From positions 1 to 64,000 of the IMG/VR virus record IMGVR_UViG_3300042543_000303: 64,000 bases of DNA; one strand, written 5' to 3'. Under the pieces are notes generated by a model, which was given only the letters and a program-made list of their open reading frames with translations, ran no database searches and had not been told where the DNA came from. Each line of letters begins with the position of its first letter. Position 1 is the first letter of the stretch. The DNA comes from a virus. Below are positions 7,981 to 29,181 of this stretch, one piece after another. The position numbers and the translations under genes are program-made.

Positions 7981-8012
7981 TTGTTCGCTTCTACGGCAAA
8001 AAGGCATAAAAT
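7981..8012 (+). promoter_or_regulatory. Possible promoter giving a leaderless glycosyltransferase transcript
   Basis: TTGTTC at 7981-7986 is separated by 18 bases from CATAAA at 8005-8010. Transcription would start at about the ATG at 8019, and no Shine-Dalgarno sequence lies at normal distance from it. A leaderless mRNA, common in actinobacteria, is therefore plausible. The evidence is only the hexamer match and spacing. Confidence 0.35.
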
Positions 8013-8018
8013 ACGCGC

Positions 8019-14568: not shown

Positions 14569-15822
14569 CTATTCTGAGTACCAGCGCTTGCGCACGGCTT
14601 CACGGGAAAAGCCTTTGTCAAGGTTAAGAAGCCACTCACGATCACCAATGAGCTCCCCTTGCGGGCCAGTAGGCGTCCCCTTGATGGCGCCGTTGATAGC
14701 CTCGCCTAGCCACGTGGCGGCTTGCACTGGCACGGCCTTACCCCACACGGCCGGCAGCGCGCTGTACGTGCGAACGGGCTCGATAGCCCAGCCGTCTGGC
14801 AGCCCCTGCATCCGTGCTGCTTCACGATGCGTGATTAGACGCGGCTTTGTTGGGTGTACCACGTGATCAAGCGCTGAGCCGGTAAGAACGTTCGCCCAGT
14901 AGCGATCGCTCCACCGATACGGCGTCGAAAAGCCTAGACGGTAATCCTTTCTTCGAACGCCCTCTTCAAGATTCTTCCATGTCGGCGGGAACTCGCCCAG
15001 GTTATCAACTGCCTTTTTGAGCGCGTCACCTAGACTTTCATTGGCCATCCAGGCGTCGTCTTCGGCAATAGACGTGAAAACTTCCTCGACCCGTTGAGCG
15101 TGGATATTCGTTCGCCCCATGTGCCCGTCAACCTGGCCGGTCTGATTTCTCAGCGAACGCGTCCATTTTGTGTCGTCCCCGACGTATGGCTGCTCTTCCC
15201 ACTGATATGGCATATCGGCAAGGTCACCGATGACTTCCATGATCTTAGGCAACTCAGTGGGGTCGTCGCAGTGCGCACCAAAAGGCAAGCCCTTCTCAAC
15301 CGCTACCCAGAAATAACGCGGCCGGAACGAAAATCCGCCAAGACGCAGATTGTTGTGCTTGACGTGATACAGGTCGTATTCTTTGCCGCTTAGCTGTTCG
15401 AGCATGTCGCGGTATTGGAGCATTACCTCGCGCCCTTGAGTGTACGCCTGCTGCACACACTCAAACGAGACAACTGTCGGCTTCTGCCGCGCGGCGTACT
15501 GCATGAATGCACGCGTATGCACATGCGCCGGTGAATCCGGCCCGCGATATGTTGGCCCGCTAAACGGTGACCACCCTGAGCACGGAGGACACCCGACCAC
15601 AGCGTCCGTGTCGTCAAAATCCGGCCAGTCATCTGGGTCATCAGAGAACCAGGCGTCCCAGTACTCATCATCCGAGTTGAAGTGTTTACGGTTCGCTTCC
15701 GCGACGCGGTTACCAAAATCAAGAGTGCCGACTCGTCCTTGCATCTTCATTCCAGCATTTGCCATGCCAAGGCTCATAAAACCAGCAAGGCCGTTGCAGT
15801 CAACAAACTTCGGGGCACTCAT
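14569..15822 (-). CDS. C5 cytosine DNA methyltransferase
   Basis: 417 aa. The start is set at ATG 15822 because AAGGAG lies six bases upstream; a longer frame would run through that site. Motif I is FVDCNGLAGF (6-15). Motif IV is GCPPCSGWS with the catalytic Cys81. Motif VI is FECV where the canonical form is ENV, so the active-site Glu is kept but Asn is replaced by Cys. Motif VIII is FRPRYFW instead of QxRxR. Motif IX/X are REAARMQGLPD and GKAVP. The order is that of the family. It probably methylates phage DNA at a specific sequence, for restriction evasion. The altered motif VI/VIII and its company of modification-type genes make an unusual substrate (for example hydroxymethylcytosine-containing DNA) worth considering. 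Confidence 0.85.
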   Translation of the reverse strand: MSAPKFVDCNGLAGFMSLGMANAGMKMQGRVGTLDFGNRVAEANRKHFNSDDEYWDAWFSDDPDDWPDFDDTDAVVGCPPCSGWSPFSGPTYRGPDSPAHVHTRAFMQYAARQKPTVVSFECVQQAYTQGREVMLQYRDMLEQLSGKEYDLYHVKHNNLRLGGFSFRPRYFWVAVEKGLPFGAHCDDPTELPKIMEVIGDLADMPYQWEEQPYVGDDTKWTRSLRNQTGQVDGHMGRTNIHAQRVEEVFTSIAEDDAWMANESLGDALKKAVDNLGEFPPTWKNLEEGVRRKDYRLGFSTPYRWSDRYWANVLTGSALDHVVHPTKPRLITHREAARMQGLPDGWAIEPVRTYSALPAVWGKAVPVQAATWLGEAINGAIKGTPTGPQGELIGDREWLLNLDKGFSREAVRKRWYSE

Positions 15823-15853
15823 GTGTCTCCTTCGTCGCGCGGTCGCCCTTACC

Positions 15854-16165
15854 TTACGCTGAGGTTGATCTGTTCTCAGTGATCTGGCCCACCTCATAGC
15901 CGCATCCCGCGTATCCGGCAATGTCGATCCAGGTGTCGGCCTGAAACCCGCCATTGACCAGTCGCGCCATCTTGACAGCGATCATTGCTGCCGCGACGTC
16001 CGATTCGGAGAATGGTCGCCCGAAGAGAACGGTCCAGATCCTAGCAATCCGGTTGAAATTCTCTTCTGGCCCGCCATACTGCTTGTCGCGATTACCGGCA
16101 ATAAGATCTGCCGCGGTACAAAGAGCTTCCTCGCGGGGGGTCTTCTTGCTTTCTTTGCTTGCCAT
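15854..16165 (-). CDS. DUF6378-type phage protein
   Basis: 103 aa. The sequence A-x-x-L-I-x-G-N-R-D-K-Q-Y-G-G-P-E-E-N-F followed by IARIWTVLFG is the signature of the DUF6378 family, common in phages of very different hosts. Helical throughout. The biochemical role is unknown; members often lie among DNA metabolism genes, as here. Confidence 0.75.
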   Translation of the reverse strand: MASKESKKTPREEALCTAADLIAGNRDKQYGGPEENFNRIARIWTVLFGRPFSESDVAAAMIAVKMARLVNGGFQADTWIDIAGYAGCGYEVGQITENRSTSA

Positions 16166-16170
16166 GTCTT

Positions 16171-16380
16171 TTACCTCTTCATTCTTAGATGCACGGTTGC
16201 CTTGTACGCGCCATCGGCACTCATGTCTGAGTAGCTAGGAGTAATGTCGACTTCGATGTCGACCCGATTTTCAATTTCATCGATGCTAATCCCAAGAAAC
16301 TCTGCGACTGCGCGTAACGTCTTACCAGCAATCTCGTCGTACGTATCGCCTTGCACCTCTAGCTGCGCTGAAGCTCTCAT
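16171..16380 (-). CDS. Hypothetical protein, 69 aa
   Basis: The pattern strand-helix-strand-strand (AQLEVQGDTYDEI, long helix, VDIEVDI, YKATVHLRMKR) suggests a small alpha/beta fold of dodecin-like size. ATG overlaps the upstream TAA (TAATG). No function assigned. Confidence 0.55.
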   Translation of the reverse strand: MRASAQLEVQGDTYDEIAGKTLRAVAEFLGISIDEIENRVDIEVDITPSYSDMSADGAYKATVHLRMKR

Positions 16381-16799
16381 TACTTGACTCTCTTCTCGAG
16401 CATGTACGGGCTATGATGCGCGCCTTCAATTGCCGGAGCCTTATCGTCCTCCGACTTAAAAATGACATCTCCGTATCGAATACCAACAATTCGTCCGCGC
16501 CGCCCGTTGTGCGCCGTTCCAGCTTCTCCCGTATACGCGTCAGCCTTAACTCGCACCTCATCTCCGACAGTGATTTGCCCCGGCTGCGCTTGAACCCAGA
16601 TCTCATCGGCAACGCTCTGAGGGATAAGCGCGTGCCCGAGTGCTACCTTGCTAAACACTTCAACTGTCTCGGCCGCTGACTTATCTGTGTGGTTCATTGT
16701 GTTCCACAGCTCCATAAGTCTTAGCACCGCCGTGCCAACCGACTGCTTAACTCTTGCCTGCGCGAATTGCTCGCGCACCCACTCTTCGCTAATCGTCAT
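16380..16799 (-). CDS. Hypothetical protein with KOW/SH3-like C-terminal domain
   Basis: 139 aa. Start taken at ATG 16799 because it overlaps the upstream TGA (ATGA). The N-terminal 70 residues are helical; residues about 75-130 (ITVGDEVRVKADAYTG, GRRGRIVGI) match a KOW/SH3-like barrel with the conserved G near the turn. KOW domains bind RNA or ribosomal proteins. Two similar barrels occur in the giant protein at the right edge of the window. Exact role unknown. Confidence 0.6.
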   Translation of the reverse strand: MTISEEWVREQFAQARVKQSVGTAVLRLMELWNTMNHTDKSAAETVEVFSKVALGHALIPQSVADEIWVQAQPGQITVGDEVRVKADAYTGEAGTAHNGRRGRIVGIRYGDVIFKSEDDKAPAIEGAHHSPYMLEKRVK

Positions 16800-17269
16800 G
16801 CCACTACCTCGCACTTCACGCAAATTGTTGAATTAGAAACACTAACCCGGACTTCGTCAAGAGCCCTCGAGCAGACACCACACTTTACTCCAGCCTCGCG
16901 AACTTTGTACCCATCGCGCTGGCGCGCTCGATTCTTTTTCATTTTTTCTAGATAGATTTCGTCAAGCTCTTCGTCGGTGGCTCCAGCGGCGCAGATGATG
17001 TTAGCGACAAAATGCAGAACATCGACCGCCTCCTTAACTAGTTCTTCGCGGTCAAGGTACGGGTCATCGTGCTGCCACGGTTTCCACGACATTGCTTGCC
17101 GCATTTCGGCAAGTTCATCGTCAATCGCCAACATGTTCCAACGCATATACTCGATAGTGGCGTTGATATCATCAGGCGCGTTGCTGTGGAAGACCGAGTA
17201 CTTGGCTCCGTAGCACTCTTCCTGAAGCCTGGCAGTCTCCTTGAGCCAGTCTTGAAAAAGTCTTTTCAT
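16796..17269 (-). CDS. Dimeric dUTPase/dCTPase-like pyrophosphatase with C-terminal zinc ribbon
   Basis: 157 aa; start set at ATG 17269 (GGGGTAAG upstream), within a longer open frame. All-alpha NTP pyrophosphatase features: E52-x-x-E55 (DELAEM) followed by SWKPW, then E80-x-x-D83 (KEAVDVLHF), and N-x-x-R-Q-x-x-G-Y near residue 113-121, as in phage dimeric dUTPases; T4 gp56, which acts on dCTP and dUTP, shares this fold. It would remove dUTP and possibly dCTP. Residues 128-157 add a zinc ribbon, C130-x-x-C133 and C150-x-x-C153, not usual in this family. It lies next to two glycosyltransferases. Confidence 0.8.
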   Translation of the reverse strand: MKRLFQDWLKETARLQEECYGAKYSVFHSNAPDDINATIEYMRWNMLAIDDELAEMRQAMSWKPWQHDDPYLDREELVKEAVDVLHFVANIICAAGATDEELDEIYLEKMKKNRARQRDGYKVREAGVKCGVCSRALDEVRVSVSNSTICVKCEVVA

Positions 17270-17282
17270 TCTTACCCCTACT

Positions 17283-18308
17283 TCACTTTGATGAGAGCAA
17301 CAGCGTGTCGAGAAGATACTCAAGCGCTTTGCCTTTAGGCGTAATTGAAGATAGATAACTGTCCTTTTGCTGCGCGGCAAGACTATCTCGCCGCGCTTGA
17401 TTCATTTCGTCGACGGTAACGGCTAGATCCATCCACGGGTCACCAAGAATAGCAGACTCTCGCCAATCGGTAACGACTGGCACCCCTACGCCTATAGACT
17501 GGGCAACGCGAGGAGTCCACCATGACCCTGTCGGCTTAGACGGCGCAATAAGCGCGCCAACACCTTGCGACATCTGCGCAAGAACGTCACGATCTGCCCA
17601 TCCCTTGTGCTCTTTCATTGGCACGACATTGGTTTTCATTGTTGCTTGAACGCTGGCCGCCCACCGCGACTTCACATCGTCCACGACCCAGAATCTACTT
17701 CCATCGCTAGAAGAGAAAGTTTCTACGTCGTGTACCCGATCAAAAATTAGTGAGTCTAGATTCACTGCTCGAAGACTGTTAACCGCGTGGGGCGGGAGTG
17801 CGCTTGCAACCTTGCCCTGGTTTCCCCACGGCAGAATCGGGTACAAAGTTTCCGCCCAGGTGTACGAATTAAGATAGTTAACAGCGCCGTGAATCTTTGC
17901 CGCAGTTTCTGGCGTGCGTGCCTGCGCGTAGAACGGCCTAGCCGAATAGAAAGGCTTGAACATCGCGGCAGGAGATTCCTGCATCGCGTGAATGCTGTGC
18001 GCAATCTTTCCAGGGTCAGGCGCGTCAAGAAAAAGACGCAGCTTAGGGGAATCGCGCATCTCATTGATAACCCATAGCGCCGCGTACGCATGGTTAGCGG
18101 CGACGCTAGTGAGTGGCGATAGCCCAACGAACACGAGATCATAGTCCTCGAGCGCGTCTCTAGTCATTCCAAAACTCGGTGCGCAGATTTCGCTTGAATG
18201 CAGTTTGGTGCTGAGCGCGCTGGATAGAAGTCCGGCAAATGACACCGAGCGCTCTGCGTATTTTTTCGACGCCTGAGGCGCAGTCATCCCAGTGATAAGT
18301 GTTTTCAT
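17283..18308 (-). CDS. GT-B type glycosyltransferase, paralogue A
   Basis: 341 aa; ATG overlaps the upstream TGA. N-terminus MKTLITGMTA and the acidic-aromatic segment YDLVFVGLSPL, followed by LRLFLDAPD, mirror MKILMSGFTA, FDVIWMNLAPL and VGFFDDW in the 393-aa gene at 18553. The C-terminal donor-site block (LIAPSKPTGSWWTPR, then SIGVGVPVVTDWRE) is typical of the second Rossmann domain of GT-B enzymes. The pair and its setting suggest DNA-base glycosylation, as by T4 alpha- and beta-glucosyltransferase, but protein or surface glycosylation remains possible. Sugar donor unknown. Confidence 0.75.
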   Translation of the reverse strand: MKTLITGMTAPQASKKYAERSVSFAGLLSSALSTKLHSSEICAPSFGMTRDALEDYDLVFVGLSPLTSVAANHAYAALWVINEMRDSPKLRLFLDAPDPGKIAHSIHAMQESPAAMFKPFYSARPFYAQARTPETAAKIHGAVNYLNSYTWAETLYPILPWGNQGKVASALPPHAVNSLRAVNLDSLIFDRVHDVETFSSSDGSRFWVVDDVKSRWAASVQATMKTNVVPMKEHKGWADRDVLAQMSQGVGALIAPSKPTGSWWTPRVAQSIGVGVPVVTDWRESAILGDPWMDLAVTVDEMNQARRDSLAAQQKDSYLSSITPKGKALEYLLDTLLLSSK

Positions 18309-18556
18309 TCGCGCCCGCCCGCGGGCTCGTCAACTTCACCAATTTCATCAAGAACAGCAGGTAGCGCGTCTAGCACGCGTTCGACATCCTCGCACGCGAT
18401 ACTCCCCCAGTTAAGCGCGTCGTCTCCAGCCGGGTAGCTGTTTGGGAACCACGCGGCAAGAAGAGCTTGCGCTAGTTTTCTTATGAGCTGATCTGTTACA
18501 TGCTCTGGTAAGTATTCTTCTGGGAAGCTTGTTTCATTGATCTCCGTGTACGTCAT
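18305..18556 (-). CDS. Hypothetical acidic protein between the two glycosyltransferases, 83 aa
   Basis: It overlaps both neighbours by 4 bases (ATGA on each side), so the three genes form one translationally coupled cassette. Acidic helical protein with PEEYLPEHVTDQLIRKLAQAL at the N-terminal half and a C-terminal Pro/Gly tail. No family recognised. Its conserved placement could be tested in relatives; an accessory subunit of the glycosyltransferases is a guess. Confidence 0.6.
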   Translation of the reverse strand: MTYTEINETSFPEEYLPEHVTDQLIRKLAQALLAAWFPNSYPAGDDALNWGSIACEDVERVLDALPAVLDEIGEVDEPAGGRE

Positions 18557-19734
18557 ATCTTGAGTCCTTTGTCTTCTCGTACTGCACGGTGAACGATTTG
18601 ATCGCAGTGCGCGATAAATGAATCGTAGCTTGGTATGTACTGCCGTAGCGCGTTCTGCTGCGTGATCGCGAGCTGCGCGAGCTCGGCGTCTGATAGACGC
18701 TCAATCTCGGCAATACTCAGCCGGTGGCAGTCACCAAGCGGCGCGCCTTCGTTCTTGTCCGCGAAGAGAACTGAACCTACACGCGCGGAGTACATGAATC
18801 GACTACGCCACCAGCCAGACCCGGCGTGCGGGTACGGCGGAGACAGAATACCCCAGTGCTCGTTGTAGAACGCGAGGACGTCCTGTTCAGTCTGAAGGCG
18901 CTGACCGCCGAGCTTGCGAACCAACTTGCGCGACCCGACAATTTCGACAGGCCACTCAAAGCGTTTCTTCTCAAGCCACGTGTCGTGCGGCATTAGCGCC
19001 CCAAGCACCCACGCGCGTTTCTTGCTCTCTGGCGGCAGCGCTGTGACGCTGTCAAGAATAGAATAGATCGTCGAGCTCGGGTCAAGCGCCTCGATCGCTG
19101 AAAGCTCTTTCGGCATGCGCTTGCGTACCAGTGAACGATCGCCCCACGCGTACATTGGGCACACAGGCACCATGCCTGCCCCCCAGCGCGCCCCGAGCAA
19201 GTTTCGCGCAGATTCGACAAGCATTGCGTCGTAGTCGCGAACAGACTCGTCAGTCTCCGTCATATAGTAGCGCTCGATGTAGATCTTGGCGTTAGGGTTA
19301 ATGGCTAGCGCGCGTTCCTTGGCAGCTACAGCGTCCGCGTGACTAAAGTACGTGGCGCCCTCCTCGCCGCGATCCTTGCCGACAAGAAGATATTTGTAGA
19401 TCATCTCGGGCTTGCGTATCAACGCCTTTGCACCATTGAACACGGTGGAGAACTGCCAGTCATCAAAGAAACCCACGCAGGGTTTCCCGCTAGCAAGAGC
19501 GTAAAGCGCGCCCATAGCGCCTTGTCTTCCGTTAAGTGAGTTTAGGGGCGCGAGGTTCATCCAGATGACATCGAAAGACGATAGGTCTTCGCCGGGTGTC
19601 ACCTTGCGCCACTCGACCTCATGCCCGGCGCTACGCAGCGCGTCAACGATTGACGCAGGTACGTCAATCTTTGAGATTGTACGCTTGTCGGTGTTGATCT
19701 GCAGGGCAGTAAACCCTGACATCAAGATTTTCAT
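18553..19734 (-). CDS. GT-B type glycosyltransferase, paralogue B
   Basis: 393 aa. Same architecture as the 341-aa paralogue: MKILMSGFTA start, FDVIWMNLAPLNSL, a CPMYAWGD turn in the middle, and the donor-site block SPPYPHAGSGWWRSRF followed by VGSVLFADKNEG. The longer linker (about residues 120-190) is specific to this copy. Two diverged copies in tandem could add two different sugars or build a disaccharide on one acceptor. The gene starts the glycosyltransferase cassette; a GC-rich hairpin lies between it and the SSB-like gene. Confidence 0.75.
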   Translation of the reverse strand: MKILMSGFTALQINTDKRTISKIDVPASIVDALRSAGHEVEWRKVTPGEDLSSFDVIWMNLAPLNSLNGRQGAMGALYALASGKPCVGFFDDWQFSTVFNGAKALIRKPEMIYKYLLVGKDRGEEGATYFSHADAVAAKERALAINPNAKIYIERYYMTETDESVRDYDAMLVESARNLLGARWGAGMVPVCPMYAWGDRSLVRKRMPKELSAIEALDPSSTIYSILDSVTALPPESKKRAWVLGALMPHDTWLEKKRFEWPVEIVGSRKLVRKLGGQRLQTEQDVLAFYNEHWGILSPPYPHAGSGWWRSRFMYSARVGSVLFADKNEGAPLGDCHRLSIAEIERLSDAELAQLAITQQNALRQYIPSYDSFIAHCDQIVHRAVREDKGLKI

Positions 19735-19764
19735 TCCGTCTCCTCAGTAGCCCCTGCGACGTGC

Positions 19765-19789
19765 CCGCCCGGTGTAGTGGGCCGGGCGG
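19765..19789. promoter_or_regulatory. GC-rich hairpin between SSB-like and glycosyltransferase genes
   Basis: CCGCCCGG (19765-19772) and CCGGGCGG (19782-19789) pair perfectly over 8 bp around a 9-base loop. On the minus strand it lies 24 bases past the SSB-like stop. There is no U-tract, so it may act as a partial terminator or as an mRNA stabiliser. Confidence 0.5.
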
Positions 19790-19812
19790 ACACGCCGTAC
19801 GCTTCGATCGTA

Positions 19813-20385
19813 CTAGAACGGAGAAGCGGGAGGTGCGCTAGCGCTGACAGCTTCTGGTGCAGGTGCAGGTGCAGGTGCAGGTGCAGGTGCAGGTGCAGGT
19901 GCAGGTGCAGGTGCAGGTGCAGGTGCAGGTGCAGGCGCCGCGGCCGGAGCGGAAGCTGCGAGGGGTGCTCCAGCCGCCGCCTGAGTGGCGTAGTAGGTCT
20001 TGATCTCGTTGCGCTTCTGACCCTGCCACGTGCGACTGCCAACCTGCGCACGGAACGAGCGCCCAACAAGCGCCTGCTCGATCTGAGCATTCGACGGGTT
20101 GGTTGCGAAGTAGTCGCGACCGAGACCAAGAGCGTTCATCTTACGGAAGAAGATGCCAAGCGCATTTGCGTTGTCAGGTGAGACAACCAGGTTGTCCCAG
20201 ACAAGACGCTTATTGTGCGCGCCACCCTGAACCTGAGTCTTCAGCGCGAACATTGTCTTGCCTGACTGCGACACTTTTGCGGTTGCCTCGACCACGGTGA
20301 GTTCATAGTCGCCGTCCGGCAGCGGCTCATAGCTGCCGACGTCTCCGGCCTCGTTGACGAGGTCTGACCAGTTGAGACTGCTCAA
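19813..20385 (-). CDS. Single-stranded-DNA-binding-like protein (DUF669-type) with Pro-Ala tail
   Basis: 190 aa, TTG start with AAGGAG six bases before. Residues 1-130 follow the phage DUF669/SSB-like pattern: LNWSDLVNEAG, LPDGDYELTVVEA, then RLVWDNLVVSPDNANALG and a Gly-Leu-Gly stretch. Residues about 145-175 are a run of Pro-Ala dipeptides encoded by 13 perfect copies of a hexanucleotide, ending in an acidic-poor tail with final aromatic ASPF. A flexible linker ending in a hydrophobic tip is usual for SSB proteins that recruit partners. It precedes the Sak4-like ATPase, Cas4-like nuclease and helicase, so a recombination-replication role is likely. Confidence 0.75.
   Translation of the reverse strand: MSSLNWSDLVNEAGDVGSYEPLPDGDYELTVVEATAKVSQSGKTMFALKTQVQGGAHNKRLVWDNLVVSPDNANALGIFFRKMNALGLGRDYFATNPSNAQIEQALVGRSFRAQVGSRTWQGQKRNEIKTYYATQAAAGAPLAASAPAAAPAPAPAPAPAPAPAPAPAPAPAPAPAPEAVSASAPPASPF
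19856..19933. repeat. Hexanucleotide tandem repeat, 13 perfect copies
   Basis: GGTGCA is repeated 13 times without a mismatch on the plus strand, inside the SSB-like gene, where the minus strand reads as alternating Ala and Pro codons. Six-base units keep the frame, so copy number change would only alter linker length. Confidence 0.95.
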
Positions 20386-20414
20386 TGTATTCTCCTTACT
20401 CTGCCTGACGACTG

Positions 20415-21191
20415 TCAGGACGCCTTCTTCTTGGACTCAGCCGGGGCTGCTTCTTGCTTTGGCCCGAAGACCATGTCGAGCATACGCTCGATTGATAGGT
20501 TTTCCTGCTCGACGACTCCGCCGAGCCTACCCTGTACGCGTTCGCCAGCTTCGTACTTCGGCGTACGCTCGACGTACATGCGACGCACTCGATACGGCCC
20601 TTGCGTTGGGTCAGGATTTGGAAATTCCTCGATAGTAATTGCGCCGAGGATATCGTAGAAATACGGAGCCTGAATAGCCAGCTGCCCCTGTAGATACGGC
20701 TTGTACCGATCATCCTGCCCCGACCGTGCCATGGCGGTAAGAACCACGGCCTCGAGCGGAGCGGTAGGGTGCATCGTTAGGTCACGCAGATCACGCAAGA
20801 GCGCGCCCATGTGACGAAGTAACTCACCCCACTGCTGCTGACTCATCTGCTGCTTCCCCGCGATATTCTCCAGGCACTTAACCTGGAGCTCAGACACGGA
20901 GTCAATGATGAGCGACTTAAACTGATGCTTACCGAGCTGAAGCCACTGGAACGTTTTCAGCACGGTGTCGTAGTCACGGATTTGCACGACGCAGGTATCC
21001 CACGTCCCATCCGCGACAGGCGGCTCCTCACGGAGCGGGTCCCAGTACTTGACAACGATGGGAAGGAAGCGGTGACCGCCTTCGACATCGAGCATGAGCC
21101 GGGGGTAGGGTGCGGTCACGGCGAAGGTTGACTTACCAACCTTTGACTCACCGTAGACCATAATGGTTAGAGAGCGCTGTACTTCCGACAT
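20415..21191 (-). CDS. RecA-fold ATPase, Sak4-like single-strand annealing type
   Basis: 258 aa. Walker A is YGESKVGKST (residues about 13-22), followed by LDVEGG; Walker B is the hydrophobic strand SLIIDSVSEL near residue 95. A later QQQWGELLRHMGALLRDLR helix and VVLTAMARSGQ match AAA_24/Sak4 phage proteins, which promote annealing together with an SSB. The C-terminus is basic and Ala-rich. It lies between the SSB-like gene and a Cas4-like nuclease, the normal set for phage recombination. Confidence 0.82.
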   Translation of the reverse strand: MSEVQRSLTIMVYGESKVGKSTFAVTAPYPRLMLDVEGGHRFLPIVVKYWDPLREEPPVADGTWDTCVVQIRDYDTVLKTFQWLQLGKHQFKSLIIDSVSELQVKCLENIAGKQQMSQQQWGELLRHMGALLRDLRDLTMHPTAPLEAVVLTAMARSGQDDRYKPYLQGQLAIQAPYFYDILGAITIEEFPNPDPTQGPYRVRRMYVERTPKYEAGERVQGRLGGVVEQENLSIERMLDMVFGPKQEAAPAESKKKAS

Positions 21192-21194
21192 GCG

Positions 21195-22121: not shown

Positions 22122-23923
22122 AGTTTGTTGTCCTTATCGTCACGAAGCATGGAGAGCAGCTGCGCCTTGTCGCGGACAATCTGCTCAAAGTTATCTGCCT
22201 TGGTTTCAAGCGCCTGAATAACACGTTCTTCGATTGTGCCTTCAGTGACGTAATCGGTAATGATCACCGAGTCGTGAATCTCTGAGCCAATGCGGTGCAC
22301 GCGGTCGAGTGCCTGCTTATGATCGACAAGCGACCATGGTCGCTGCAGCATGACAAGTCGTCGCGCCGCAGTTAGCGTTACGCCGACGCCGCCTGCCTGC
22401 GCAGTGAAAAGAATCCACTTGATTCTGCCGGACTGAAAATCGTCGATAGCCTCTTGACGTTCGTCTTCGGTCTGCGCGCCGGTGATCAGCCCATGGGGAA
22501 TCTTAGCTTTTGTCATCGCGTTGCTCAGCAACTCAATCAACTGGCGGGACACGGCGCATACGGCGACGCTGTCACTGCCAAAGTCGCCGGATGATATGTC
22601 GTTCATGAGCGCATCGACCTTACACGACGGCTCGGCAAGAATAACGCGCGATTCACCGCTCGTCTCGTCGATGACCATCTCGGCATAGGACGACGCAAAC
22701 TGCAGCAGACGTGTTGTTTGCGTGAGCGGGCTCGGCGCGGTAAGTGCGTCCCCGCCTTCCAGCTCCGCGATCATCATGTCGCGCATCTGGCCGTACGCCT
22801 TCTTCTGCTTGGTTGACATTTCAACGTCGCGACGCTCAAAGAGTACCTCTGGCAGCCACGGCAACACGCGCGCCTTAAGCATACGGCGCATGCGCGGGTT
22901 GATCGCCGCGTAGAACTCTTCCTGCATATGCGGCTTGACACCGAGCACCATCATGCCGCCGAATGCGTTGAGCATCGTGTCTACAGTGCGATCGACCCAG
23001 CGTGTCTTGCTCGGCCATTCTTCTGGCGATAGCCAGTGCAGAATGGACCAGAGATCGAGCACGTCATTGGCGATTGGCGTTCCCGTGAGAGCGAATCGGA
23101 ATGGCGCGTCCGCGGTGGCAGCCCAGAGCGCGCGTGTTTGCTTGCTCTTAGGCTCCTTCGAGCGGTGGATCTCGTCGGCGATGACGCTCTTGAAGTCGAT
23201 TTCGTTGAGCTCGCGCCGGTGCACCTCGCAACGGTTTTCGCTGATACGCTCATCGTGGCCGCCGCAGTCCTTGCACCGAGCCAGAGCCACAGAACCGTAG
23301 GGTGCGAGGCGCGAGTGTGATCGTAGCGACTCCCAGTTGATGACGTACACGTCCGCGTCGCTGGCTAGTTGCTTGCGGCGTTGTCCGGCGCTGCCTTTGA
23401 TGACCTCGACATTGACGCCTGGCCACCAGAGCGCGAACTCGCGCTTCCAATTCTTTTTGAGCGTGTTTGGGCACACGATGAGCGCCGGAAACACACCCTC
23501 GCCGGCGTCCTGCAGGCGCTTGAGTGCTCGAATTGCCTGGGCGGTCTTTCCGAGGCCAGGCTCATCAGCAAGAAGGGCTCGACGGGCCGTGGCAAGAAAC
23601 TCGACGCCCGCTCTCTGGTGGGGAAATAGGTCCTCGTTGACGCCATTCTCGAGGGTCTCAAGGTCACGAAGGGCGTTGGCCGGGTCGATACGCGCGACTC
23701 GCTCATTGGCCGCCCATTCGCCCAGTCTTGGCCCAATCTCAAGGTCGTCTCGAAACGTCGAGCGTAGCGCCAGGCAGGTTGCCCACCCGAGGGGCGCTCG
23801 CCATACCTGATCCTTCGCTGACCAGGTGGCTCCAGGGATGCTTTTGCAAAGCTCCTTGTACCGCCACTCGGCGTCGATCAGAATCGACTTGCCTTCGGCG
23901 TCGAGCTCTGTCGTTACGGTCAC
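22118..23923 (-). CDS. SNF2-family DNA helicase/ATPase
   Basis: 601 aa from GTG 23923, chosen because GGAAGGAG lies five to six bases upstream; an ATG 30 bases further upstream would put that site inside the gene. The first 85 residues (WRYKELCKSIPGATWSAKDQVW) look like a HARP-type annealing module. Then HQRAGVEFL, Walker A DEPGLGKT, DEIH box, a Cys-rich insertion (CKDCGG, later CEVH) and the C-terminal motifs TAQAGGVGVTLT and ALDRVHRIGS. The fold matches phage SNF2 helicases of SMARCAL1/HARP type, which remodel replication forks. Overlaps the nuclease gene. Confidence 0.85.
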   Translation of the reverse strand: MTVTTELDAEGKSILIDAEWRYKELCKSIPGATWSAKDQVWRAPLGWATCLALRSTFRDDLEIGPRLGEWAANERVARIDPANALRDLETLENGVNEDLFPHQRAGVEFLATARRALLADEPGLGKTAQAIRALKRLQDAGEGVFPALIVCPNTLKKNWKREFALWWPGVNVEVIKGSAGQRRKQLASDADVYVINWESLRSHSRLAPYGSVALARCKDCGGHDERISENRCEVHRRELNEIDFKSVIADEIHRSKEPKSKQTRALWAATADAPFRFALTGTPIANDVLDLWSILHWLSPEEWPSKTRWVDRTVDTMLNAFGGMMVLGVKPHMQEEFYAAINPRMRRMLKARVLPWLPEVLFERRDVEMSTKQKKAYGQMRDMMIAELEGGDALTAPSPLTQTTRLLQFASSYAEMVIDETSGESRVILAEPSCKVDALMNDISSGDFGSDSVAVCAVSRQLIELLSNAMTKAKIPHGLITGAQTEDERQEAIDDFQSGRIKWILFTAQAGGVGVTLTAARRLVMLQRPWSLVDHKQALDRVHRIGSEIHDSVIITDYVTEGTIEERVIQALETKADNFEQIVRDKAQLLSMLRDDKDNKL

Positions 23924-24006
23924 TAAGTCTCTCCTTCCGGGTGCAAACAACATACTAACAGGAAATCTGCAAAAAGTAATAGTTTTCTCGTAGTATGTAC
24001 AAGATT
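23924..24006 (-). promoter_or_regulatory. AT-rich gap before the helicase gene
   Basis: 83 bases without a gene, clearly richer in A/T than the flanks. On the minus strand TTGTAC and TATTAC stand 15 bases apart, a poor promoter match. The strong ribosome binding site GGAAGGAG of the helicase lies at its end. Confidence 0.3.
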
Positions 24007-24474
24007 TTATTGAAGTAGCACGGTTGGCTTCCAACCAAGCTTTACTAGCCGTAGAAGCCCATGACGAATCGCGTCATTCGCGTGCCCACCACCGCCGACG
24101 TGCCAAGTGCCGATTTTACGCAGCGCGTCGTTCGGGAACATCTTTTTTGCGTCCGACGGAGACTGAAAAATCAACTCAGCTTCGGCATCGCGGGCGTAGT
24201 CTCGCATGATCTGCTTAAGCACGCCGATCTGTTCGAGGCTGTATGGCGCCTGACTGTTGCGCACTGTCTGCGCGTTGATCACAAAGCGTTCGCATACAAC
24301 GCCAAGCTCAAGACCATGATGCAGCGCCCACTCTAGCGTGTCGCGAATCGGCTTTGCAAACTCATCAGGTTGGTACTCACCGGATGACAGTAATTCAGGA
24401 GACTCTGACAGGCTAATCACACTGACGCCAGTAGTCTTTCCAGGGTCTACTGCAAGAACATACTTCACGTCCAT
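24007..24474 (-). CDS. RuvC-like RNase H-fold nuclease (Holliday junction resolvase type)
   Basis: 155 aa. AVDPGKTTG at residue 8 gives the first catalytic Asp, VVCERFV near residue 60 the Glu, and HANDAIRHGL near residue 133 the last Asp, in the order of RuvC/RNase H-like phage resolvases. Size also fits. It is expected to cut branched DNA during packaging or recombination. The ATG lies within the upstream deaminase gene (10-base overlap). Confidence 0.82.
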   Translation of the reverse strand: MDVKYVLAVDPGKTTGVSVISLSESPELLSSGEYQPDEFAKPIRDTLEWALHHGLELGVVCERFVINAQTVRNSQAPYSLEQIGVLKQIMRDYARDAEAELIFQSPSDAKKMFPNDALRKIGTWHVGGGGHANDAIRHGLLRLVKLGWKPTVLLQ

Positions 24475-24788
24475 ACGATATTCGCCACTCCTACTCTGGC
24501 CAGCCGGCGCTCACAGCGCTTGCACGGTTTTGACATGGCAGGACTACCATCACGCCCAACGCGTGCCACGTAGACTGTTGCACCCTTCGCACGAGGTCCC
24601 GCCGCGGCAATTGCCGCTTCCTCGGCATGTACGTGCGCGATGCGCCACGTGTTTGAGTCTGCTTCACGGATTCTTTTATTCGTTGCCTCTGCGACTACTA
24701 CGCCGTTCGCAACAACAACGCAGCCGTGCCGGTATCTGCACTTACTCGTCGCGGCAATGTTGATCGCCTGCTCAAGAAACCGGTTCAC
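24465..24788 (-). CDS. Small deaminase of the cytidine/dCMP deaminase fold
   Basis: 107 aa, GTG start overlapping the polymerase TGA (GTGA). Zinc and catalytic residues are present: HAEE near residue 53 and PCKRCE near residue 88. It is shorter than the dCMP deaminase at 26607 and closer to the small phage dCMP/cytidine deaminase-like proteins. The genome therefore has two deaminases, one on each side of the polymerase. Substrate not decidable from the motifs. Confidence 0.75.
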   Translation of the reverse strand: MNRFLEQAINIAATSKCRYRHGCVVVANGVVVAEATNKRIREADSNTWRIAHVHAEEAAIAAAGPRAKGATVYVARVGRDGSPAMSKPCKRCERRLARVGVANIVWT

Positions 24789-26623
24789 CGGTACTTATCT
24801 CCCCATGTCTCAAGCGGACCGTCAATGCCGGCGGTAAGCGGGACGTCCCAGCCGTCTGAAGTTGTCATACACTCTTGCACAACCTTCATGATCTCGTGCG
24901 CCTCACGGCGCGGCGCCTGCAGCACAATCTCGTCGTGCACCGGCACAATGAGATGCTCGGTGAGATCTGCCTGATCGAGCTTGACGAGGTTCTGCTTAAA
25001 CACCTCGGCGGCGCCACCCTGAATTAGATAGTTGACAAGTGTGTACACGCGATTCTCATCGCAGGGGATTCGGCGGCCTGTCCACGTGTAGACGTAGCCC
25101 TGCCCTTCCGAGCGTAATCTCCGCATTCCAGTGTCTTCAATCTTGCGCTGGAAGTCGGCCATGCCCGGGTAGCGAATGTCAAATGCGTCTGATACTGAAC
25201 GCATCTGCGTCTCAGGCACGCCGGCAGTTAGCGCTTGCTTCGCGACGCCCGCTCCGTATAGGCGACCATAGACGGTGCCCTTGATCAGATTACGGCGCTT
25301 GTCGCTCTTTTGCATGTCTGGGTCTTGGTAGATTTCGCGACCAATCTCCGTGAACGGGTCCGAACCCGTCGCGTCCGCGCGGTTAAACAGCGTGATCAGA
25401 TTGGGGTCGCCAGACAGCGACGCAAACATGCGAAACTCAACCTGGTCGAGGTCGGACGTGATAATCACGTGATCCTCGTCCTTTGGAATGAAGGCGGTAC
25501 GCACCGTGTCATCGCCCTTCGGCAGCGTCTGCAGCGCAGGGTCGGTAATCGACATCCGCGACGTGCGCGCCCCGAGAGTCTTCACCGACGGATGAACGAT
25601 TCCGTCGATAGACTTGGTCAGGAAGTTCTGAAAGTACGTGCCAGCAAGCTTGTCCGCCTTGCGCTGCTTAAGCACAATCTCGGCGAGCTGCTTGACCTCG
25701 TCATTGCCGTAGATCGTCAACATTTTGAGCTGATCCTTGGTGCACGACTTCTGCCCGGTTGGCGTCATCTCTGTGATCTCCGCGCCGAGGCTCTCAAACA
25801 AGCGCACGAGTTGAATGTTACTTGTGATCGACGTCCCGCCGTACGTTTGCTTGGCCCATGTCTTAACCGACTCGGTGTACGCGGTCAACTCGTCATACTT
25901 GCGCTGCGAATAGTCCAAGTCAATTCGTGCGCCGTTAAGTTCCATGCGCGTGACGATGCGCCGTGCCGCCATTTCGAGTTCGTACGGGCGATTGTAAGGA
26001 CCGCCTGGGCCACACTTCTCCCAGAACATGTGCCACAGGCGCATTGTCAACACGGTATCCAGCGCGCCGTACGCCCAGTATGGCTGGAAGTTGATCGGTA
26101 CCGTTCCCCACGTCCAGCCGTTCTTGGCCAGCTCTGTGTCCAGCGTGTCTTGCAGCGCGACGGCGCGCCCGTCAACGTGCAACGCTGCAAGTCGCTTGAG
26201 CGCGCCAGAGCCTAGCGGGTCGATGATATGAGCCATGATCATCGTGTCGTGCGCGCGATGCCATGGAATTTCCCAGCGCGAACGAATGTCAAACCAACGC
26301 GCCTCGAACGCGATGTTGTGGCAGACGATAGGACCGTCGAAGCGGCTCATGGCTTCGTAGAAGACACCAGACCATTCTTCCCAGGGAATCGACCACCCTT
26401 GCTCGCCGTCGCCAACCTGCACAAGTCGCAGACGCCCGTGCCATGGCGATAGCGCATGATCACGTGGGTTGCCTGGGAGCTCGCCGGTCTCAGTGTCTAC
26501 AGCGATCGCGTTCAGTGGGCGTCGTTCACTTAGCCAGCGCAGAAACTCACCTGCTTTGTCGACAGAGTCGACAAGGTGAAGTTGAACGTCGCCCAGATTA
26601 CCAGTATCAGACAAGAACGTCAC
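24785..26623 (-). CDS. polA: Family A DNA polymerase with 3'-5' exonuclease
   Basis: 612 aa, GTG start. The exonuclease domain has DTETG near residue 43 and CHNIAFEARWFD; no 5'-3' exonuclease domain is present. Polymerase motif A is SDLDQVEFRM, motif B (O helix) is RRNLIKGTVYGRLYG, and motif C is VHDEIV. In motif B Lys448 and Tyr456 match E. coli Lys758 and Tyr766, and Tyr452 stands at the position of Phe762. Tyr at this place is typical of T7-like and many virulent phage polymerases. This is the replicative polymerase; the primase and helicase are not in view. Confidence 0.93.
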   Translation of the reverse strand: MTFLSDTGNLGDVQLHLVDSVDKAGEFLRWLSERRPLNAIAVDTETGELPGNPRDHALSPWHGRLRLVQVGDGEQGWSIPWEEWSGVFYEAMSRFDGPIVCHNIAFEARWFDIRSRWEIPWHRAHDTMIMAHIIDPLGSGALKRLAALHVDGRAVALQDTLDTELAKNGWTWGTVPINFQPYWAYGALDTVLTMRLWHMFWEKCGPGGPYNRPYELEMAARRIVTRMELNGARIDLDYSQRKYDELTAYTESVKTWAKQTYGGTSITSNIQLVRLFESLGAEITEMTPTGQKSCTKDQLKMLTIYGNDEVKQLAEIVLKQRKADKLAGTYFQNFLTKSIDGIVHPSVKTLGARTSRMSITDPALQTLPKGDDTVRTAFIPKDEDHVIITSDLDQVEFRMFASLSGDPNLITLFNRADATGSDPFTEIGREIYQDPDMQKSDKRRNLIKGTVYGRLYGAGVAKQALTAGVPETQMRSVSDAFDIRYPGMADFQRKIEDTGMRRLRSEGQGYVYTWTGRRIPCDENRVYTLVNYLIQGGAAEVFKQNLVKLDQADLTEHLIVPVHDEIVLQAPRREAHEIMKVVQECMTTSDGWDVPLTAGIDGPLETWGDKYR

Positions 26624-27101
26624 TTTCGTCTAGTGTCGAATGAAAAACGTCAACCTTCAATCCGCAAGCGCGCAGATACTTGATGACGAGCTCGGGCTTA
26701 CGATGCGCGTCTGCCTCGCGCAGGCGCATAACAACTCGAACAAGCCCCGAGTTGGACACTGCCTTTGCGCACGACATACACATGCTTTCGGTTACGTAAA
26801 TCGTCCCGCCCTCTACCTGAGTGCGATCTACGTAGAGTAGCGCGTTGAGTTCACTGTGAATGCTGGGGCACTGATCGTATGTGTTATCTAGCGGAGTTAT
26901 CCCTTGAGCTCTTGGGCAGAACTCGATGCAGTCACCTTCACTTGGGTAGGTTGCCGCTGGGCCGTTGTAACCGGTCGAGCAGATACGATTATTGGCGGAC
27001 ACAACAACAGCGCCGATACCAGCGCGTGTGCAGCGACTCCGCAGCGCGATCGTGTCAGCCACAGACATCCACGCCTCGTCCCACGTCAGCCTGCCATGCA
27101 T
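26607..27101 (-). CDS. dCMP deaminase
   Basis: 164 aa; ATG 27101 chosen for its GGGAGG site. The sequence WDEAWMSVADTIALRSRCTRAGIGAVVV is the standard start of the family. Zinc ligands are in PSIHSELNAL and in MCMSCAKAVSNSG (here Met replaces the usual Pro of PCxxC). The long insert CIEFCPRAQG with extra cysteines is as in T4-type dCMP deaminase. It converts dCMP to dUMP. The stop overlaps the polymerase start by 17 bases. Confidence 0.85.
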   Translation of the reverse strand: MHGRLTWDEAWMSVADTIALRSRCTRAGIGAVVVSANNRICSTGYNGPAATYPSEGDCIEFCPRAQGITPLDNTYDQCPSIHSELNALLYVDRTQVEGGTIYVTESMCMSCAKAVSNSGLVRVVMRLREADAHRKPELVIKYLRACGLKVDVFHSTLDESDVLV

Positions 27102-27102
27102 A

Positions 27103-27291
27103 CTAGTCGTCCTCCCGAGCGTCCTCAATCGCCGATCCGGCGCCAAGAACGATGCTACGGGCGATCAGATCAAGCGCCTCGCGACGCGTAAAGCCGGCGC
27201 GCTTAAGTTCCTGGTAGAGTTCGTGCATTTGAATGGCACCGGCAGCGAGCGGGCTCATGTCATTTGTTGGTTCACTATTCTCATTCGCCAT
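27103..27291 (-). CDS. Hypothetical protein, 62 aa
   Basis: Start at ATG 27291 with GAGGAG seven bases before; it overlaps the end of the thymidylate-synthase-family gene by 11 bases. Mostly two helices (LAAGAIQMHELYQELKRAGF, REALDLIARSIVLG). Its REALDLI segment resembles small phage proteins that follow nucleotide metabolism genes. Function unknown. Confidence 0.6.
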   Translation of the reverse strand: MANENSEPTNDMSPLAAGAIQMHELYQELKRAGFTRREALDLIARSIVLGAGSAIEDAREDD

Positions 27292-28159
27292 TGCTAGTCT
27301 CCTCAGTAATCTTCTTGGCCTTTTCTTCATTGTTGCGAATCGCGGTTACCATCGAGTTAGTAAACCACTTTTCGTGATCCTGCAAACGGTCATAAAGCGC
27401 CTGATCAAAGACAGCCTTTAGACAACCAACGGCACTAGCAGACACTTCCTGCCAGATTCGACCAGTGATGTATGGAACCGGTACGCCATCTGTTGCGTAC
27501 TCAAGACTTTCGGCTGCCGCATAGTGCTGCTCATAGATGTGCAACGAACCAACGTGGTGCGCGTACGTCCCGGGCTCAATGCCTAGCACTGACGCAATCG
27601 CAATCTGCACGCGCGTAAACTGAAACCAGTCATATGCGGCGCCGAGCCAAATATCATTCGAGCGCATGTACACACTCATGTTGAGCTTGCCGTTACGAAT
27701 GCGGAACTGATGCAGCACCGTGCACGGATAGTCGCGCTTACTTGGCTGCAGATCGAGCTTTGGGTCCCAGATGGTTACGACCGCCTGCCGCGTATCCGGG
27801 TCTTTCTTAAGCCGTTCAATGACGTGCTCGTATTGTCCCCGAGTGCGCGGGCCGTACGCTCCATGAAACAGCCCATTGTTCTCAGCGTAGTTCGCGAACT
27901 GCGGGCCAACCGCAATCACAAGCTCAGGAGCGCTCACCCCCGCAAGAAGCTGCAGCGACTCAACTGACGCAATACCCGGCACCGCACCGCGCTTAACACC
28001 AAGTGGCAGTGTGTTATACACGTCATCGATGACGATCACCGCGTCCTCAATCTCGCGCGTCTTCATTCCACGCGGCGCGACTTCGTCACCGTTCTCAAGC
28101 ACCCAACGAACAACGTCGACGTACCCGTTGACTCCGTCGGCAACGTGCTTAATTTTCAT
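27281..28159 (-). CDS. Thymidylate-synthase-family enzyme with dCMP-type substrate residue (putative dCMP hydroxymethylase)
   Basis: 292 aa from ATG 28159, which overlaps the upstream TGA (ATGA). Family residues: Glu68 in VESLQLLAG, GAYG at 100-103, the catalytic Cys146 in YPCTV, R166-S167-N-D169, and HIY at 207-209. In thymidylate synthases the segment after LG reads PFN, and that Asn recognises the uracil ring. Here it reads LGAAYDW, so Asp177 (codon 27631-27629) takes its place. T4 dCMP hydroxymethylase also has Asp there, and an Asn-to-Asp change is known to shift thymidylate synthase toward dCMP. The likely product is 5-hydroxymethyl-dCMP; 5-methyl-dCMP is the alternative. No second thymidylate synthase is in the window. 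Confidence 0.78.
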   Translation of the reverse strand: MKIKHVADGVNGYVDVVRWVLENGDEVAPRGMKTREIEDAVIVIDDVYNTLPLGVKRGAVPGIASVESLQLLAGVSAPELVIAVGPQFANYAENNGLFHGAYGPRTRGQYEHVIERLKKDPDTRQAVVTIWDPKLDLQPSKRDYPCTVLHQFRIRNGKLNMSVYMRSNDIWLGAAYDWFQFTRVQIAIASVLGIEPGTYAHHVGSLHIYEQHYAAAESLEYATDGVPVPYITGRIWQEVSASAVGCLKAVFDQALYDRLQDHEKWFTNSMVTAIRNNEEKAKKITEETSNGE

Positions 28160-29181
28160 TGCAGGATCCACTGAGCGCTCCCTTGTATCTCTTCGCCACG
28201 AGCGAGTCGCTCGATAGCCTCACCGTATTTTGCCTTGTCGCTAGAATGAAAACGTCGAACGTACTGCGGATGCGCCAGCGTTCCGGCCATCTCAAATTCA
28301 AGACCAGCGTCAATCGCAGCCCGCTCGGCCTCGCGGCCTAGCGAAATTACTCGCGGGTAACCAAGCGCCGACCATAAACCGTGTAGACGTTCAGTGTCGG
28401 CAAGATCGTTCGCGTTGACGATACCGAGCTTTGGCCAGGCCTTCTCGGGCAGCGAGTCAAGAAGGAACTCGCCTGAGTTGCCGCCAACAGGCATGAATGG
28501 GAGACGGGTCTCGTCGCCGTACAGCTCGGTGACATTACGCTTGTCTCCAAGAATAAGAGCGCGTGGAGTTGTTGGCCCGATGTACTCGGGGTACTCAGTG
28601 CGCAGCTTAAATGTCTGCCGCGTAGAGAATCCCGCGCGATCAACCACGGCCTTCGCAATTCCGCGCAGACTAGAAGTATCATTTGGTTCTGGCACCAGAC
28701 GCTCGACCACGGACGGGGCAACAGTCATACCAAAGTCATAGCGCTCAACGATCGCGTCGAGTTCGCCGACCGATACAAAATCATCGCCGCGGGACTCAAG
28801 GCGTGTTCGAAGAACATCGAGCGGCTGGCTGAGAATCCACGTTGTCGCTCCGCGGGACATAAGAAAAAGCTCAACCCATCGCCAGCCTGCGCGCCCGAGT
28901 AAACCGTACCCGTCTTTGTTTGTGTGAGGGCGCTTGAGCGGTGCGTACGTGACCTCGCCCCAGTGCCAACGGTCCGCGACGATACACGCTCCAGACGTCG
29001 CGAGTTCGTCAATCGACAAGACGTATTCATTGAGCACCCATCGCCGCGATTCCTCGAGAGGGCGACCCTTATGAAAATGGTGCGCGCTATGAACTCCGCA
29101 CGACACGCTTAGGTGGTGCTCGAGCGCTCCAAGCATTGAGCTCTTACCGGCCGCGTCTGGGCCTTCGATGATGATAAACAT
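28156..29181 (-). CDS. Thymidylate-kinase-like enzyme fused to a uracil-DNA-glycosylase-like domain
   Basis: 341 aa. Residues 1-200: P-loop EGPDAAGKSS (6-15), ADRWHWGE near residue 70 (the DR motif), and SRGDDF as a lid-like Arg region, as in dTMP kinases. Residues about 215-335: RALILGDKRN, then PFMPVGGNSGEFLL, GIVNAND, VISLG and HPQYVRRF, the block order of family 4/5 uracil-DNA glycosylases, although the first motif is GDK instead of GEAPG. The kinase would phosphorylate dTMP or a modified dNMP. The glycosylase-like half may be a pyrimidine-binding domain instead of an active enzyme. A promoter lies upstream. Confidence 0.75.
   Translation of the reverse strand: MFIIIEGPDAAGKSSMLGALEHHLSVSCGVHSAHHFHKGRPLEESRRWVLNEYVLSIDELATSGACIVADRWHWGEVTYAPLKRPHTNKDGYGLLGRAGWRWVELFLMSRGATTWILSQPLDVLRTRLESRGDDFVSVGELDAIVERYDFGMTVAPSVVERLVPEPNDTSSLRGIAKAVVDRAGFSTRQTFKLRTEYPEYIGPTTPRALILGDKRNVTELYGDETRLPFMPVGGNSGEFLLDSLPEKAWPKLGIVNANDLADTERLHGLWSALGYPRVISLGREAERAAIDAGLEFEMAGTLAHPQYVRRFHSSDKAKYGEAIERLARGEEIQGSAQWILQ

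Follow-up and report, generated by a model that had tools for sequence, protein, structure and literature searches.

Candidate genes for a T4-like glycosylated hydroxymethylcytosine in the DNA of a probable actinophage

Introduction

Does a virus whose host is probably an actinobacterium exchange the cytosine of its DNA for a sugar-coated form, as T4 does? The question is raised by the genes in Table 1, which lie in the window, i.e. the whole stretch of 64,000 nt under study, taken from a record of 73,960 bases that is possibly a fragment. Most of what is known of glycosylated hydroxymethylcytosine (hmC) comes from T4-like phages whose hosts are Gram-negative. The literature searched held no report of an actinophage with this base, and nothing relevant was found on Kurnik, on DNA modification in Gordonia phages or on base modification in DSL-LC01. 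An earlier note on this DNA proposed a T4-like cytosine hypermodification, and the genes that it named all lie where it placed them. We consider it likely that the gene set is such a T4-like swap, with hydroxymethyl-dCTP made before replication and glycosylation following after it.

Results

Table 1. Features of the window considered in the analysis.
Feature	Coordinates	Strand	Basis
C5-cytosine methyltransferase-like protein (MTase)	14569..15954	-	PF00145 4.7e-18
dCTP/dUTP pyrophosphatase, T4 gp56 homologue	16796..17269	-	Pfam dUTPase_2 1.3e-10; gp56 4e-11
Glycosyltransferase GT5, fast-evolving GT6 paralogue	17283..18308	-	homology to GT6, 3e-8
Glycosyltransferase GT6, GT-B fold (modelled)	18553..19734	-	AlphaFold + Foldseek
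SSB-like gene, edge of variable sugar slot, not a modification gene	19813..20385	-	conserved 5' neighbour of transferases
Short cytidine/dCMP deaminase-fold protein, 107 aa	24465..24788	-	PF00383 1.1e-11
dCMP deaminase	26607..27101	-	PF00383 2.4e-16; PHROG 2e-36
Predicted dCMP 5-hydroxymethylase, thymidylate synthase (TS) family	27281..28171	-	PF00303 1e-25; MilA best PDB match 1.1e-25; aligned signature
dNMP (hydroxymethyl-dCMP?) kinase + ~135-aa C-terminal domain, possibly UDG-like	28156..29181	-	PHROG thymidylate kinase 2e-10

The gene of the TS-family enzyme can be read from a GTG start, as in Table 1, or from an ATG (27281-28159), which gives the 292-aa enzyme whose numbering is used here. 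Its best solved relative among PDB sequences is the CMP 5-hydroxymethylase MilA. The active-site residues were compared by alignment with T4, MilA, SPO1 and canonical TS controls. It was found that the residue at the uracil-recognising Asn position is indeed Asp177, as the earlier note had read it (codon GAC, 27631-27629), aligned with Asp179 of T4 gp42 and paired with Asp186 of MilA in the phmmer alignment. The full signature relative to T4 gp42 is E67, Y102, R124, D143, C146, T147, S167 and D177. The water-activating Asp143 is three residues N-terminal of the catalytic Cys (D143-Y-P-C146), Thr147 directly follows this Cys, and Arg124 and Ser167, the deoxy-selecting pair, stand at the positions of Lys133 and Ala176 in MilA. 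One residue of the published hydroxymethylase signature is missing, Ser94 of T4 being Gly here while Tyr102 (T4 Tyr96) is kept, and this counts against the T4-like swap; the Gly recurs in other enzymes that have the Asp179 equivalent, among them those of phage G and of Gordonia phages. The canonical TS controls have Leu, His and Asn at the sites of Asp143, Thr147 and Asp177, respectively. The R-D-C-T-S-D signature is present in 49 of the 52 distinct homologous segments, and the remaining three are two uracil-type controls (R-D-C-N-S-N) and one partial piece.

These residues set the choice of cytosine over uracil, of deoxy over ribo and of hydroxymethylation over methylation (PMC5175136, PMC6400193), and an Asp three residues ahead of the catalytic Cys is the mark of hydroxymethylation (PMC6400193). 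Moreover, Asp at the cytosine-recognition position belongs to the pair of residues with the strongest association to phage contigs whose modification was found by experiment (PMC8670742). With Arg and Ser replacing Lys133 and Ala176 of MilA, the enzyme is predicted from its alignment to prefer dCMP. In the tree, the actinophage hydroxymethylases form a clade apart from T4 gp42 (99/96 for the actinophage set and 100/100 for the T4-type set). The earlier note also saw no ordinary thymidylate synthase in the window, and this extends to the whole 73,960-base record, possibly a fragment, where there is a single PF00303 match and no canonical TS, ThyX or TET was found.

The other nucleotide enzymes were likewise as the earlier note had described them. 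The dTMP-kinase-like enzyme next to the hydroxymethylase gene has a profile match to YorR (8e-8), and its closest solved fold is YorR/TMK (Foldseek). The dCMP deaminase is clear from both Pfam and PHROG. The all-alpha dUTPase/dCTPase-like enzyme is a homologue of T4 gp56, with 27% identity by BLASTP, and gp56 was scored at 33 bits by the family profile.

For GT5 and GT6, Pfam gave no match and profile searches against PDB sequences gave nothing credible; therefore the fold was predicted for GT6. The AlphaFold model is of moderate quality (pLDDT 69, pTM 0.74), and its best Foldseek matches are GT-B enzymes with TM-scores around 0.5. T4 beta-glucosyltransferase (1qkj) is only 15th by E-value, but its TM-score of 0.50/0.54 is higher than those of the entries ranked above it. 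GT6 is thus, by its model, an enzyme of the two-Rossmann GT-B fold. The earlier note described two paralogous GT-B enzymes unrelated to those of T4. Paralogy is supported (21.6% identity, 3e-8), and the GT-B fold holds for the modelled GT6 and is extended to GT5 by homology only. The lack of relationship to the T4 enzymes stands by sequence, where none was detected, but not by TM-score, in which GT6 is nearest to T4 beta-glucosyltransferase.

GT5 evolves faster, the median identity among homologues being 40% for GT5 vs 71% for GT6. Homologues of GT6 occur in Gordonia phages, in DSL-LC01 and in T4-like Aeromonas and Erwinia phages; the T4-like phages also carry a T4-type dCMP hydroxymethylase and a separate canonical TS. 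On the other hand, C48C1 is a GT6-positive phage with no TS-family gene at all, which counts against the T4-like swap. A bacterial origin of GT6 was considered and set aside, with no relative in bacterial genome contigs (genome_contigs). UDP-galactopyranose mutase adjoins the GT6 homologues in DSL-LC01, Erwinia FBB1 and Aeromonas phages, and was considered as a local sugar source. It is absent from the record and from the other freshwater contigs tested, and therefore galactofuranose is not assignable to the window.

A megablast of the region against phages gave no match. The module is nevertheless colinear in DSL-LC01, in Gordonia phages (four Gordonia genera) and in tens of IMG/VR contigs, so that the association extends to phages only distantly related to one another. 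The SSB-like gene at one edge of the variable sugar slot was matched in 87 loci. Within the module the transferase slot varies among relatives, and the sugar genes are interchangeable. For example, in some relatives GT6 is swapped for another transferase together with an APH-type kinase, a HAD phosphatase and a nucleotidyltransferase. These cassettes show weak similarity to RB69 ORF052c/053c, and RB69 genes have been proposed for arabinosyl-hmC (PMC6024577).

The MTase-like gene belongs to the same neighbourhood. In a search based on the MTase only, GT5 was found in 44 of the 45 loci with enough upstream sequence and the dCTPase in 51 of 52. In the phage collection, GT5 and the MTase occur in the same 14 records, and the MTase in one more, Micrococcus phage Kurnik, a phage with hydroxymethylase, pyrophosphatase and transferase genes from different families. 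One clade without the MTase and GT6 retains the hydroxymethylase and GT5. The subfamily keeps PPC (motif IV), the motif-VI Glu and RxR (motif VIII), and its base-flipping and catalytic residues are invariant; all 20 members have E[CS]V for ENV, GK[AG]V for GNAV and an altered motif I. Among general bacterial C5-MTase controls, 12 of 12 have ENV and every one with a motif X match has GNAV, with motif I unrecovered in most. The bacterial relatives are mostly short general C5-MTase matches, apart from one partial match of 37% to residues 117-454 in a Verrucomicrobiales MAG.

Discussion

For every enzyme reaction of the T4 scheme there is a counterpart here, either homologous or matched by fold. 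From the enzyme families, the active-site signature, the gp56 homology, the GT-B fold predicted for one transferase and the conserved gene set, we infer the following reactions. The TS-family enzyme would convert dCMP to 5-hydroxymethyl-dCMP, which the phage dNMP kinase and the host nucleoside diphosphate kinase would raise to hydroxymethyl-dCTP. The gp56-like enzyme would clear dCTP and yield dCMP, part of which the dCMP deaminase would send to dUMP for host thymidylate synthesis. Hydroxymethylcytosine would then be built in by the phage Pol I-type polymerase, and a sugar would be attached after replication by the two GT-B enzymes; the conserved GT6 probably acts first, and the fast-evolving GT5 is probably a variable second or alternative transferase. 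The sugar coat may shield the DNA against restriction and CRISPR nucleases.

The likeness to T4 (gp42, gp1, gp56, beta/alpha-GT) covers the hydroxymethylase signature, the gp56 homologue, the dNMP kinase, the dCMP deaminase, a GT-B transferase and the logic of synthesis first and decoration afterwards. The differences are the separate clade of the hydroxymethylase, transferases without detected sequence kinship to those of T4, a record without td, the added MTase-like gene, and relatives with actinobacterial hosts and Pol I-type polymerases. MilA (mildiomycin, Streptomyces) shares the Asp177 equivalent and the Asp three before Cys, but differs in the Lys/Ala pair. The phages with 5-carbamoyloxymethyl-dC (MetaGPA study) combine an Asp177-type TS with a deaminase and a pyrophosphatase in modified contigs, whereas the window has glycosyltransferases. 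Kinase, phosphatase and nucleotidyltransferase cassettes link some relatives to RB69 arabinosyl-hmC and to the deoxypentose-cytosine of Shewanella phage Thanatos; the window lacks a cassette of this kind, and its transferases are another family.

If the T4-like swap is true, it is carried by widespread freshwater actinophages and cultured Gordonia phages, and bears on restriction by these abundant hosts. The exchangeable sugar slot would be a source of candidate transferases and sugar-activating enzymes for DNA. Since relatives are cultured, a single nucleoside analysis could test the claim.

The earlier note suggested that cytosine may be replaced. A glycosylated 5-substituted cytosine is supported by the Asp177, Asp143, Ser167, Arg124 and Thr147 alignments and by the conservation of the module; replacement may be less than complete. 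With every cytosine C5 already occupied, a conserved C5-MTase-like gene makes little sense, so that this gene, a specific question raised by the module, speaks against a simple replacement of all C or suggests that hydroxymethylcytosine undergoes an additional step. We give some weight to a milder form, unlikely as it is, in which hydroxymethylcytosine replaces part of the C, the MTase methylates the remainder or host DNA, and glycosylation is partial. This would account for an MTase with invariant base-flipping and catalytic residues; a gp56-type dCTPase, however, is expected to drive replacement, and the cofactor-site motifs are altered across the whole subfamily. More doubtful is a repurposed MTase-like protein, no longer a methyltransferase of cytosine, that acts on hydroxymethylcytosine in DNA. 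This is suggested by the altered cofactor site beside kept residues for base flipping and covalent catalysis. At selected sites the protein would carry out an additional or a reverse step, such as condensing another group or taking off the hydroxymethyl so that C is restored ahead of glycosylation. If true, phage DNA based on hmC would have a component not recognised so far.

Replacing Asn by Asp in an ordinary TS leads to dCMP methylation (PMC8670742), and the enzyme could accordingly be a dCMP methylase like that of phage XP12, with 5-methylcytosine in the DNA and the transferases serving another use, e.g. surface glycans. We regard this as improbable: Asp143 is the published hydroxymethylation mark and is Leu in the canonical TS controls, the C-terminal end of these controls (..MAV) is missing from the enzyme, transferases that need a hydroxyl acceptor are conserved alongside it, and GT6 is without a bacterial relative in genome_contigs. 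The MTase-like gene, near the transferases and conserved together with them, could instead point to a TET route, in which 5mC made at motifs is oxidised by a dioxygenase and glycosylated, the TS-family enzyme being secondary. This is very improbable, as PF12851 is missing from the record, the relatives tested gave no TET/JBP match except one below the family cut-off (G014), and one clade has hydroxymethylase and GT5 without the MTase. Finally, that the enzyme is a phage thymidylate synthase in a dTTP-boosting set would fit its neighbours, the thymidylate kinase-like gene and the dCMP deaminase, and its annotation in relatives, but we can hardly credit it given the Asp177, Thr147 and Asp143 residues, the separate canonical TS in T4-like relatives with GT6, and Gordonia phage GMA2, which carries ThyX besides this enzyme and so does not need it as thymidylate synthase.

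On two genes the earlier note was silent, namely the MTase-like gene, inside the coordinates it covered, and the short deaminase-fold gene. The latter is limited to 7 of the loci in the comparison, and its link to the pathway is uncertain. The C-terminal domain of the kinase is possibly UDG-like, as suggested by motifs seen by eye and by no more than a subthreshold UDG match in the DSL-LC01 homologue (E=0.22).

Active site of the predicted hydroxymethylase

We consider it quite probable that the virion DNA contains a substituted hydroxymethylcytosine, and less so that cytosine is completely replaced. Hydroxymethyl-dCTP would be synthesized before replication and the sugar attached after it. 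Every gene named in the earlier note is present. The full IMG/VR record consists of 73,960 bases, of which the window covers bases 1-64000; as the earlier note had stated for the window, there is no ordinary thymidylate synthase (TS), a second TS and ThyX both being absent from the whole record. UDP-galactopyranose mutase and TET are also absent from the 73,960 bases.

Features of the module in window coordinates
Feature	Position	Strand	Remark
C5-cytosine methyltransferase (MTase) family member	14569-15954	-
Small protein	16380-16775	-	between dCTPase and DUF6378 genes
dCTPase	16796-17269	-	T4 gp56 homologue (27%, 4e-11)
GT5 transferase	17283-18308	-	paralogue of GT6
GT6 transferase	18553-19734	-
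SSB-like protein	19813-20385	-	long Pro-Ala repeat tail
Second deaminase-fold protein	24465-24788	-	107 aa; in few relatives
dCMP deaminase	26607-27101	-
Predicted TS-family hydroxymethylase	27281-28171	-	292 aa from ATG
Asp177 codon	27631-27629	-	GAC
Kinase-like protein	28156-29181	-	C-terminal extension
Kinase C-terminal domain	28159-28578	-	UDG-like by eye (LG..A, HPQ..RR)

The proposed Asp at residue 177 of the TS-family protein was verified, and it does occupy the cytosine-recognition position, aligned with D179 of T4 gp42. Residues E67, Y102, R124, D143, C146 and S167 align with gp42 E60, Y96, R123, D145, C148 and S169, and the counterpart of T4 Ser94 is Gly100. The top solved relative is MilA, a CMP 5-hydroxymethylase (1e-25), with all thymidylate synthases ranking lower. 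From published structures and mutants, the choice of cytosine is set by Asp179/Asp186 and that of the deoxy form by an Arg/Ser pair (PMC5175136), while Asp three residues before Cys gives hydroxymethylation rather than methylation (PMC6400193). In a phage metagenome study, the Asp179-type position and the residue directly after Cys were the two most associated with modified-cytosine contigs (PMC8670742). T4-type enzymes have Cys-Thr and Asp; the controls have LPPCH and Asn (canonical TS of T4-like phages) or Cys-Asn and Asn (the uracil-type SPO1 dUMP hydroxymethylase and Montesquieu, the latter with thymine-hypermodification genes). The R-D-C-T-S-D signature occurs in 49 of the 52 distinct homologous segments recovered, the other three being two uracil controls and one truncated segment. 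In the tree, the actinophage enzymes form a single clade (99/96), separate from the gp42-type enzymes.

Partner enzymes and gene order

The dCTPase is homologous to T4 gp56, and the kinase-like protein is nearest to YorR and TMK. A weak UDG match to its C-terminal domain was obtained only in the homologue from the relative DSL-LC01; Gordonia kinases are shorter and apparently lack this domain.

The module runs kinase, hydroxymethylase, deaminase, Pol I, RuvC, helicase, exonuclease, RecA-like, SSB-like, transferases, dCTPase and MTase. DSL-LC01 and many IMG/VR contigs have the same order, and Gordonia phages of four genera keep it in large part. In an independent search seeded with the MTase, loci with room contained the dCTPase (51/52), GT5 (44/45) and GT6 (30/37). 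Common descent explains part of this co-occurrence, but the association persists at protein identities as low as about 30%.

Transferases and the variable sugar slot

The GT6 model, of moderate quality, has the GT-B fold. T4 beta-glucosyltransferase ranks only 15th by E-value against it, yet its TM-score (0.50/0.54) exceeds those of the entries above. Searching with GT6 alone found 188 relatives among viral contigs and none in genome_contigs. GT5 is less conserved than GT6 in all 112 divergent pairs of complete modules (median 40% vs 71%). Phage C48C1 (Kyanoviridae record) has a GT6 homologue at 8001-9035 and no TS-family gene in its record. This may mean that enzymes of the GT6 type use other acceptors, or that the base is supplied from elsewhere. 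Manatee Spring phage (MW202657, 20001-39858) combines a GT6 homologue with an Asp-type hydroxymethylase and a HaeIII-like C5-MTase.

The slot flanked by the SSB-like and dCTPase genes shows several arrangements among the loci compared: GT6 and GT5 in the window; a diverged GT6, UDP-galactopyranose mutase and GT5 in DSL-LC01; GT5 alone in L009 and L014; and, in the six loci read without full-length GT6 (L193, L198, L201, L210, L212, L216), a 415-aa transferase, APH-type kinase, HAD phosphatase and nucleotidyltransferase followed by GT5. These cassette genes have profile support within the set and, for the members tested, Pfam support. The 415-aa transferase is related to Gordonia transferases and is 35% identical to a protein of Micrococcus phage Kurnik. 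The cassette kinase and nucleotidyltransferase are weakly similar to RB69 ORF052c and ORF053c, for which a role in UDP-arabinose synthesis was proposed (PMC6024577). We infer that the base chemistry is constant among relatives while its decoration varies.

The methyltransferase-like protein

In all 20 aligned members of the MTase subfamily, ENV is replaced by E[CS]V and GN by GK, and motif I is altered; PPC, RxR and the Glu of motif VI are retained. ENV is present in every general bacterial C5 enzyme used as a control, and GNAV in each of those in which motif X was matched. MTase and GT6 are both missing from one clade (G002-G004). Kurnik has the gene order of the window module and retains the MTase although, unlike the window, it has a T4-type hydroxymethylase, a MazG-like pyrophosphatase and transferases of other families, which suggests that the MTase is functionally tied to hydroxymethylcytosine. 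Nearby, the small protein beside the dCTPase gene gave a subthreshold match to Tad3, a type I Thoeris inhibitor (E=5.7e-4; score 20.1 bits, cut-off 27).
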